Shown here: positions 27,772 to 29,607 of the stretch, piece after piece | How positions within the stretch are numbered: the stretch's first letter is position 1 | How the letters are laid out: each line of letters starts with the position of its first letter | Virus record (IMG/VR): IMGVR_UViG_3300027741_000083 | Location: 1 to 54,513 of that record | Length of the DNA: 54,513 nt | Source: a virus | Direction: 5' to 3' (one strand) | Notes under the pieces: model-generated | Told to the model about the DNA's origin: nothing | Seen by the model: the letters and a program-made list of their open reading frames with translations, nothing else | Database searches by the model: none | Position numbers and translations under genes: made by a program

Positions 27772-29607
27772 TTAATCATTATTATACTCAATAACTGGCA
27801 ACATAATACACTTGCAATTCTTGCTTATTATGTTTGCAGATGATACACTATACCAGCCATTATAACTTTGCATTGTATAAACATGACCGCTAAATACACT
27901 CTTGATTTTTTGACTTACTCTAAAGAGATTCTTGAAGCTGGAGAATCTATTAGGAAATTTGCAGCTAAACATGGGTGCAGCCCTGGAAGGCTCTCTCAGG
28001 CTCTTTATAAATTCATCGGGTACAAAATTCCTATCACTAGGAAAGTCGACTATATAAACTCGAATAAAACTAACATCGTCACAAGTTATGAAAAAGGTGA
28101 AAGCATTCTTAGTATTTCTAAGAGGTACAATATTAGTAGAAGTTCCATACTGAATATCATTAAAGAGTTCGGAATCCTGATCAGGGATAGCAGCAAGGCT
28201 ACTAAAATCAGAATGTCTAAACTTACCACCGACGAAAGAAAAAAACTTTCCGAAATGGCTAGGAAAGCTAGGCTTAAAAACCTTGGAATTAAAGCTAGGG
28301 ATAAAATCATTAGTTATGATATCGGAGAGTGCGAGAACGAACTTTTCAATCTGCTTCTCACTCATGGATTCAATCCAATTCGGCAAAATATTATCGGGGC
28401 TTATAGCGTCGACATCCGTTTCAGGAATGTAGCCGTGGAAGTTAAAATCAGAACTAAGAAGTCTCTTAGCGTTGAAAGTAATATGGAGAGAATTAAAAGT
28501 ATCTTTAAAAGTGACCTTATCCCGTGTTACTTTATTACTAACAGCAAAATCGTTGTTGAAATTATCCCCGATCAAATAATCGCTCTCCTTGATTTCGTTA
28601 GCAGGCAACCACCCCCTAAGGGTCAGTATTGGGTGATTCGGTGTACACTGGAAGACATGCCCTCCGCTCAAGATTATATTAATAATATCTCCACTATAAA
28701 AGTGCCTCCACAAATCAACACAACCATTAGCAAGAGATATTTCTGTTGATCCAACAAAGCAATTAATAGCCTGTGAAGGGAAACCACGTACGCCTGTTTT
28801 TTTATCAATTATAGGTGGGTTATCTATATTATATATTTTACCATTCATCGCAATATGATCTTCCCTTGGATGTTGTCCTCCGCCGCTATGAACCCACTCA
28901 AACTTTTTTTGCCCTATTTCTTTCATTCTTTGAATATTAATACTTGTAAAAACTTTTCTTGTTTGATCTAAAGCTACATTTTTAGCTTTATTATGATGCG
29001 TTTTATATTGTTTTTTTAAGAAACCTTGAATTTCGGGTACCAAATCTTTTAAGCCTTTACCGGTTGTTATAGATCTATAAACAGCTTTTTCAACATTAGT
29101 TAAATAATTTTCTCCTATTGTTTTTATTAAAGCTACATTTTCTTCAATATTAGCTTTCATTATTTGTTTTAAATTTTGGCTAATATTTGAAGTTTTTATT
29201 GTTACAGCACCCGTTAATTTTTTTAGGCTACTATGTAAAGATGCTTTACTAAGTTTTTCTGCTTCTTTTACCATCCTTGTTGAAAAAAGAATACTTTTTT
29301 TATCAAGCCACGGCATAACTCTATTCATTAATTTATTCATAAATATTCTTGATTGGCTGGATATCGCTTCATCCATTGCAATTGATTGGCTTTCAAAAAA
29401 ATCTTCTGAAACGTCAGAATTAAAAAACTTGATCACTGATTTTTCAACATATTCCATTAATGGATCTATAATGCTTTGAACCTTTTTAATATAATAAGTT
29501 TTAAAGCCGGCGTTATAATTTAAAGGAGAACCTTTAAGTATAGTATTTTTTCTACTACTTAACCGATCTCTTTTTTTTTTAGAAATAGAAATTTCTTTTC
29601 TCTTCAT
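27772..29607 (-). CDS. MuF-like head morphogenesis protein interrupted by an intein
   Basis: 611-residue precursor. Exteins: residues 1-282 and 598-611; splicing would give a 296-residue protein. The N-extein ends with the MuF core (NVALDQTRKVFTSINIQRMKEIG, HPREDHIAMNGKIYNI, GFPSQAIN) and the C-extein starts CKCIMLPVIE, so the intein sits exactly in the conserved 'IN-CxC' metal-binding turn of Mu gpF-like proteins. MuF is packed at the portal inside the head. The upstream neighbour is the portal gene. The intein is described separately. Confidence 0.9.
   Translation of the reverse strand: MKRKEISISKKKRDRLSSRKNTILKGSPLNYNAGFKTYYIKKVQSIIDPLMEYVEKSVIKFFNSDVSEDFFESQSIAMDEAISSQSRIFMNKLMNRVMPWLDKKSILFSTRMVKEAEKLSKASLHSSLKKLTGAVTIKTSNISQNLKQIMKANIEENVALIKTIGENYLTNVEKAVYRSITTGKGLKDLVPEIQGFLKKQYKTHHNKAKNVALDQTRKVFTSINIQRMKEIGQKKFEWVHSGGGQHPREDHIAMNGKIYNIDNPPIIDKKTGVRGFPSQAINCFVGSTEISLANGCVDLWRHFYSGDIINIILSGGHVFQCTPNHPILTLRGWLPANEIKESDYLIGDNFNNDFAVSNKVTRDKVTFKDTFNSLHITFNAKRLLSSDFNFHGYIPETDVDAISPDNILPNWIESMSEKQIEKFVLALSDIITNDFIPSFNSKVFKPSFPSHFGKFFSFVGGKFRHSDFSSLAAIPDQDSELFNDIQYGTSTNIVPLRNTKNAFTFFITCDDVSFIRVYIVDFPSDRNFVPDEFIKSLREPSRAAPMFSCKFPNRFSSFKNLFRVSQKIKSVFSGHVYTMQSYNGWYSVSSANIISKNCKCIMLPVIEYNND
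27817..28761 (-). other. Intein (Hint domain) in the MuF protein
   Basis: 315 residues from Cys283 to Asn597 of the precursor, followed by Cys598. Block A is CFVGSTEISLANG; block B is GHVFQCTPNHPILTLRGW with the TxxH catalytic motif; block F/G is GHVYTMQSYNGWYSV...IISKN before +1 Cys. The penultimate residue is Lys, not His, which some inteins tolerate. The 200-residue middle has FNFHGYIPETDVDAI, a feature I recall from other MuF-linked Hint proteins, but no LAGLIDADG or HNH endonuclease in this frame. The endonuclease appears on the opposite strand. GC is visibly higher than in the exteins. Confidence 0.9.
27883..28749 (+). CDS. Putative homing endonuclease encoded antisense within the intein
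   Basis: 288 residues from ATG at 27883 (frame open from TTG 27868). Residues ~10-45 and ~68-100 are helix-turn-helix units (GESIRKFAAKHGCSPGRLSQALY; GESILSISKRYNISRSSILNIIKEFG). A basic linker follows. Residues ~155-215 look like a PD-(D/E)XK nuclease: ELFNLLLTHGFNPIRQN, then YSVDIRF (Asp) and VAVEVKI (ExK), as in VSR/DUF559-type endonucleases. Every codon is the exact complement of an intein codon. No good ribosome site is seen and expression is unproven; but long openness and motif content argue for a gene. Confidence 0.7.
   Translation: MTAKYTLDFLTYSKEILEAGESIRKFAAKHGCSPGRLSQALYKFIGYKIPITRKVDYINSNKTNIVTSYEKGESILSISKRYNISRSSILNIIKEFGILIRDSSKATKIRMSKLTTDERKKLSEMARKARLKNLGIKARDKIISYDIGECENELFNLLLTHGFNPIRQNIIGAYSVDIRFRNVAVEVKIRTKKSLSVESNMERIKSIFKSDLIPCYFITNSKIVVEIIPDQIIALLDFVSRQPPPKGQYWVIRCTLEDMPSAQDYINNISTIKVPPQINTTISKRYFC

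Follow-up and report, generated by a model that had tools for sequence, protein, structure and literature searches.

We asked whether an intein in the MuF-like head morphogenesis gene of a phage, which carries no nuclease domain in its own frame, could have its homing endonuclease encoded on the opposite strand. We consider this to be the case with a probability of about 90%: the locus would be a mobile intein coded on both strands, with a domain that would splice read from one of them and a homing endonuclease that would be separately translated, and would cut DNA, read from the other. This reading rests on sequence comparison and structural modelling. By the window we mean the whole stretch of DNA that was analysed, 54,513 bases of an IMG/VR-type virus record with 31% GC. 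The MuF gene on its minus strand has the following parts:

27772..29607, minus strand: MuF-like head morphogenesis protein precursor (N-extein, intein, C-extein); Pfam Phage_Mu_F E 2e-9, Intein_splicing E 5e-7, phrog_15127 head protein E 3e-65
28762..29607, minus strand: N-extein (MuF domain); Phage_Mu_F over residues 171-283
27817..28761, minus strand: intein of 315 residues, from C1 at 28761 to N315 at 27817; splicing domains 1-125 and 275-315 fold confidently, middle predicted to be disordered
28759..28761, minus strand: block A nucleophile Cys1
28630..28644, minus strand: block B TPNHP; His43 faces antisense Val251
28432..28440, minus strand: FHG motif, intein residues 108-110, the mirror of antisense Ala184-Val185-Glu186
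27937..28380, minus strand: sense linker, intein residues 128-275, mostly with pLDDT <55; it largely mirrors the part of the putative endonuclease that bears the helix-turn-helix units
27871..27888, minus strand: block F GHVYTM; the codon CAT of His293 is the antisense ATG
27817..27819, minus strand: block G terminal Asn315, followed by the C-extein Cys (NCKC)
27772..27816, minus strand: C-extein CKCIMLPVIEYNND and stop

MuF and intein form one continuous open reading frame, and the two intein halves do not lie in separate frames. Since this frame is continuous and carries intein blocks, an RNA intron at the locus is unlikely. The insertion motif in the window is AIN/C...N/CKC (slashes here and below mark the junctions). 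A first-pass annotation, made from the letters alone, had described an intein with complete splicing blocks and no in-frame endonuclease domain, and this description holds: all blocks are present, the AlphaFold model (poor for most of the middle) has the Hint fold and matches the Mtu RecA intein (Foldseek E 5e-4, probability 1.00) and other inteins, profile searches also return inteins, and no nuclease domain is found in the intein's own frame among the Pfam, NCBIfam and PHROGs matches. In the aligned inteins of the family described below, C1, G24, H43 (100%) and N315 are invariant (C1 and N315 in 79 members), T40 is conserved in 96%, block F reads GHVYNL and the +1 residue is Cys. Note that the phrog_15127 "head protein" family itself contains intein sequence (intein regions match profile positions ~236-390), so that it can mislabel other intein-bearing proteins, e.g. 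terminases.

Opposite the intein there is an open reading frame of 293 codons (27868-28749, plus strand), 288 of them from the conserved ATG, which, with its stop, spans 92% of the intein. The two frames are in codon-over-codon register, with antisense residue r and intein residue i related by r + i = 294; length, coverage and register agree with what had been proposed. The count of about 18 leucine and 32 serine intein codons in the overlap, none of them TTA, CTA or TCA, proved exact. Given the phage's own usage (TTA for 474 of 783 Leu, TCA for 234 of 820 Ser), the joint probability of finding none of the three is 7e-15. Among 37 window genes tested, the next longest open antisense run in this register is 77 codons. 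A chance open frame is ruled out by the codon probability together with the short antisense runs of six unrelated inteins, given below. The intein (27817-28761) has a GC content of 37%, compared with 28% in the N-extein, and its codon-position GC is flattened, as would be expected if both strands were constrained. The plus strand can be described as follows:

27883..28749, plus strand: predicted antisense homing endonuclease gene, 288 codons and stop; conserved start ATG at 27883
27901..28017, plus strand: helix-turn-helix unit 1, residues 7-45 (Pfam, AlphaFold)
28042..28167, plus strand: helix-turn-helix unit 2, residues 54-95 (Pfam, profile, AlphaFold)
28327..28605, plus strand: predicted nuclease domain, residues 149-241, I-Bth0305I-like
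28333..28335, plus strand: conserved Glu151, in 99-100% of members
28411..28413, plus strand: invariant Asp177 of a Y-N-x-D motif
28438..28440, plus strand: invariant Glu186 of a VAVE motif

What kind of protein does this frame encode? Its AlphaFold model has a mean pLDDT of 87, a value to be read with the caveat that covariation imposed by one strand may leak into the model of the other. The two helix-turn-helix units seen at first reading are recovered by Pfam (HTH_28, E 8e-7) and as helices in the model. The best structural match in the PDB is the homing endonuclease I-Bth0305I (3r3p; Foldseek E 5e-4, probability 1.00), followed by an endonuclease-like protein (3hrl). The family profile matches the same two entries, both at E 1e-5, with I-Bth0305I as the top nuclease match. 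Among 78 antisense members, Pfam finds HTH_7 in 47, the MTES_1575 restriction endonuclease domain in 46, DUF559 in 17 and Vsr in three. The first-pass annotation had read a D-ExK nuclease site here. The nuclease fold, whose lack it had named as a ground for giving up the proposal, stands; the lysine of the ExK is present in the window copy, but is not conserved across the family. The essentially invariant residues are E151, D177 and E186, and many members have a GG-xx-H motif. We therefore rejected a classical PD-(D/E)xK identity (I-Ssp6803I type), for which the catalytic lysine should be conserved; model and profiles support a relative of the EDxHD/Vsr-like homing endonucleases.

We then looked at how widespread the arrangement is. 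A tblastn search with the window's antisense protein against cultured phages gave 51 records (E down to 1e-21, ~26% identity), mostly opposite MuF or head genes and including Edwardsiella MSW-3, Haemophilus Aaphi23, Klebsiella jedunaviruses, Gordonia Vivi2 and Malisha, and Vibrio and Pseudomonas phages. With a Salmonella-phage member as the query there were 96, Salmonella, Escherichia and Shigella phages among them. A search of cultured phages for close DNA relatives of the window's own region gave no match covering the intein. Alignment-based scans of IMG/VR, run with smaller alignments and one DNA motif, added ~150 loci; together with the phage records there are 117 that are non-redundant at 95% identity. 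Both frames are open in nearly all of them. Over the stretch matched on the antisense side, the sense frame in register 0 contains no stop in 151 of 154 loci, while stops, as many as 49, almost always interrupt the other two sense frames; intein blocks are found in the sense frames throughout. A scan of genome collections returned only two bacterial loci, which says little about prophages since the patterns used were narrow.

To avoid selecting on the antisense frame, we also surveyed IMG/VR from the sense side, by scanning for DNA that codes for TPNHP[ILVFM]LT. The sample comprised at least 80 loci, of which two were too short. Among the matches listed, 72 of the 78 interpretable inteins carry the antisense endonuclease (E 4e-6 to 1e-102), and in the remaining six, which served as a control, the longest antisense runs are 43-107 codons. 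Inteins of this kind may be the commonest TPNHPxLT type in phages. In cultured phages we inspected seven further MuF inteins, five of which came from matches on the sense side and two from weak matches on the antisense side; in every one the intein is spanned by an intact antisense gene (E ~1e-61 to 1e-74). That over a hundred very different phages keep both frames intact points to a widespread two-sided gene rather than to an accident of one sequence.

It would have spoken against the proposal if homologous inteins had random change or stop codons in the antisense frame. The single exception we found is one stop in the L140/L141 lineage, whose two phages have diverged in their exteins but share an identical, intact intein; incipient decay of the endonuclease would look like this. 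Intein lengths fall into two groups, ~265-281 and 297-340 residues, which correspond to antisense proteins whose profile match starts near residue 51-63 or near residue 1, i.e. to one or two helix-turn-helix units. As for existing annotations, the intein has been marked in some phages (e.g. Escherichia phage Snoke), with no antisense gene in the match listing. The intein-bearing MuF of Salmonella phages NBSal007, vB_SalS_TU03 and ZCSE7 carries the annotation NAD+--asparagine ADP-ribosyltransferase, apparently in error.

Next, we asked whether the element moves. The intein is inserted inside a highly conserved MuF motif, which its removal restores exactly, and the intein-less MuF of Klebsiella phage RCIP0047 aligns exactly, at AIN/CRC, with its intein-bearing siblings. 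In several pairs the inteins are almost the same although the surrounding genes have diverged; the two phages L140 and L141, for example, show no differences over 624 intein bases, compared with 91 over 1445 extein bases. For L113 and L114 there is one difference in 453 intein bases against 116 in 1555 extein bases; here the identity extends some hundred bases beyond the intein, as expected of co-conversion. MuF is the host gene in 53 of 75 loci scanned. It is not the exclusive host: the element also occurs at a conserved site in terminase large subunits (L043, L044, L109 and L115; of the type VY/C...N/CQEATEL in L043 and L044) and in a protein without a PHROGs match, possibly a tail or baseplate protein (L091:2763-5660, minus strand). 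Empty alleles, near-identical inteins in diverged exteins and the terminase copies indicate that the element is mobile.

There are also freestanding copies of the endonuclease, so that the antisense protein does have homologues outside the overlap, the absence of which had likewise been named as a possible refutation. They are found at L010:455-1348 and L138:3387-4397 (Acinetobacter-type phages) and at L103:3336-4328, in each case convergent with and adjoining an intein-less MuF. Their mirrored frame is broken, with 12-13 stops in L010 and L138 and two in the short stretch counted for L103. The L103 copy has an extra Cys/His-rich N-terminus, which may be a zinc finger.

Both proteins could be functional without the antisense one being the homing enzyme of this intein; it might instead be a regulator or a nuclease directed against competitor phages. 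Similar helix-turn-helix units are found in resolvases and in a CRISPR-repeat-binding protein, and phage homing enzymes can act in exclusion. On the other hand, the nuclease family is a homing family, homing is consistent with the empty sites, with the footprints of transfer and with the jumps to terminase genes, and the freestanding copies lie beside MuF genes that have no intein. We consider such a role improbable and the two-stranded mobile intein, which its antisense enzyme probably spreads, the better reading.

If both proteins matter, both frames should be under purifying selection. Because the register pairs sense position 1 with antisense position 3, a dN/dS analysis can tell the two frames apart. 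We sorted the substitutions of 19 independent pairs into four classes (sense nonsynonymous or synonymous by antisense nonsynonymous or synonymous). In the overlap dN/dS was 0.34 [0.31-0.37] for the antisense and 0.52 [0.48-0.56] for the sense frame; in the extein of the same genes it was 0.36 for the sense frame and 0.82 [0.77-0.88] for the unused antisense frame. In the four least-diverged pairs the values were 0.15 (antisense), 0.23 (sense) and 0.94 (extein antisense control). When selection on the antisense frame only was simulated, the sense value was mostly 0.70-0.85, with one run of low divergence and small counts at 0.52; compared with these simulations, the observed overall sense value speaks for a real constraint on the sense strand. 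The test of dN/dS on both strands that had been suggested thus gave purifying selection on both. The family overlaps contain 41 TTA, CTA and TCA codons taken together, where ~724 are expected.

The constraint is not evenly distributed. Sense dN/dS is lowest in the N-terminal splicing blocks (0.26) and highest in the intein middle (0.66-0.67), a region on which the endonuclease exerts most of the pressure; the latter values are near those for antisense-only selection, so that the loop may amount to hardly more than filler kept free of stops. Most columns that are invariant in one protein lie opposite variable residues of the other: antisense G72, S74, R86, R101, A126 and E151 face variable sense positions, and opposite sense Y22, G24, G34, T40 and G50 the antisense residues vary or are less conserved. 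Few columns are conserved in both (sense/antisense: FHG/AVE, N42-H43/I252-V251, L126/Q168 and His293/Met1). The first-pass annotation had taken the conserved look of the intein middle as a sign that both strands are selected. The selection itself is borne out by dN/dS; the "FNFHGY" stretch, however, faces the AVE motif of the nuclease, which means that the two strands share this conservation and that it cannot count separately in favour of the sense one.

These numbers bear on two further explanations. One is that the antisense endonuclease alone is functional, with the sense strand as read-through filler of an intein that no longer splices. The weak constraint and mostly low AlphaFold confidence of the middle of the sense strand would suit this, but the invariant C1, G24, H43 and N315, the strong constraint on the N-terminal bin, the exact restoration of a highly conserved motif on removal, and a sense frame that stays free of stops except where the intein is gone make it very unlikely. 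The converse, that the intein alone is functional and the antisense frame a by-product of codon usage or sense conservation, we hardly credit: biased genomes can keep codon-over-codon antisense frames open by chance and some conserved residues mirror each other, but dN/dS is lower for the antisense than for the sense frame and much lower than in the extein control, most antisense invariants of the helix-turn-helix region face variable sense residues, the fold matches a homing endonuclease, the freestanding copies have lost the mirrored frame, and the six unrelated inteins lack long antisense runs. An antisense similarity due solely to sense conservation is ruled out by dN/dS, the strand-specific invariant columns, the freestanding relatives and the fold.

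An antisense gene also needs a start, and the intein appears to provide one. In the conserved block F, G-H-V-Y-N-L-Q, the His codon CAT is the antisense ATG, and Leu CTC with Gln CAR gives YTGGAG just upstream of it. Among 104 inteins, the block-F His is encoded by CAT in 75 of 89 cases, where the codon usage of the individual genes predicts 38.6, and the remaining 14 yield GTG. For the block-F Leu, CTC is used in 72 of 94 cases, against an expectation of 20.1. A Shine-Dalgarno core occurs in 69 of the 104 inteins, against an expectation of 18.7. Where the His is replaced, an ATG or GTG often follows two codons later. The window copy has the ATG and no clear Shine-Dalgarno sequence; 11 of 36 genes of the same phage have one. 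No strong plus-strand promoter stands out in the window. There are phages in which all late genes are oriented against the antisense gene; in some phages, e.g. Edwardsiella MSW-3 and Klebsiella KpV79, genes of the opposite orientation form a block beside the 3' end of MuF.

Taken together, we propose the following for the two-stranded intein. The MuF strand would code for a splicing domain that contains a long and probably flexible loop. By excising itself from the MuF precursor, the intein would re-create the conserved Asn-Cys-x-Cys end of the protein. The opposite strand would be transcribed and separately translated into a homing endonuclease with one or two helix-turn-helix DNA-binding units and an EDxHD/Vsr-like nuclease domain, its frame starting at the complement of the block-F His codon and ending inside or near block A. 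This enzyme would cleave the insertion site in intein-less MuF alleles of co-infecting phages, and repair would then copy in the intein together with its antisense gene.

How does this compare with known systems? Inteins with an in-frame LAGLIDADG or HNH endonuclease likewise pair a Hint domain, inserted in an essential and conserved gene, with an endonuclease responsible for homing, whereas here the endonuclease would lie outside the intein polypeptide, on the opposite strand, and overlap the splicing domains themselves. Fractured genes, reportedly described by Dassa et al. in 2009, are said to contain split inteins with a freestanding endonuclease of a new family between the halves. Common to them and our case are an intein and an endonuclease that is translated separately and belongs to the same broad family; here, however, host gene and intein are continuous and the endonuclease is on the intein's opposite strand. 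I-Bth0305I (PDB 3r3p) belongs to the EDxHD family of phage homing endonucleases (PMC3943268) and resembles the antisense protein in its nuclease fold and in its plan of separate DNA-binding units plus a catalytic domain; it differs in that here the helix-turn-helix units are N-terminal, the conserved set is E, D, E and the gene is antisense to an intein.

Antisense coding as such has precedents. I-DsqI is an active homing endonuclease whose gene lies antisense in a nuclear group I intron (PMC9548176); it, too, is read opposite its splicing element, but that element is RNA, while here both strands code for protein, codon over codon. Ambigrammatic narnavirus RNA has a long uninterrupted reverse frame over a coding sequence, with no described function (PMC6884476), whereas the second protein here has a recognisable fold and a likely role. 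In the open-access literature searched, we were not able to find a description of an antisense endonuclease in an intein. The components are known, and what appears to be new is their arrangement on the two strands of the same codons. The proposal of a new antisense-nested composite of intein and endonuclease is in this sense largely upheld.

We consider it quite likely that these inteins represent an ancient, widespread and previously undescribed class of mobile element, in which two unrelated proteins are coded on two strands and block F doubles as ribosome-binding site and start of the endonuclease gene. As an example of codon-over-codon coding on opposite strands for two unrelated, separately recognisable proteins of full length, it appears to be among the clearest and the most widespread. 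The other strand is also a possible answer to the question why many phage inteins seem to have no endonuclease. Neither mutation nor deletion can easily separate the two functions, and the homing endonuclease may therefore decay more slowly than such enzymes usually do. Finally, the family offers a natural system with many members for the study of dual coding, of antisense gene expression in phages and of intein engineering.
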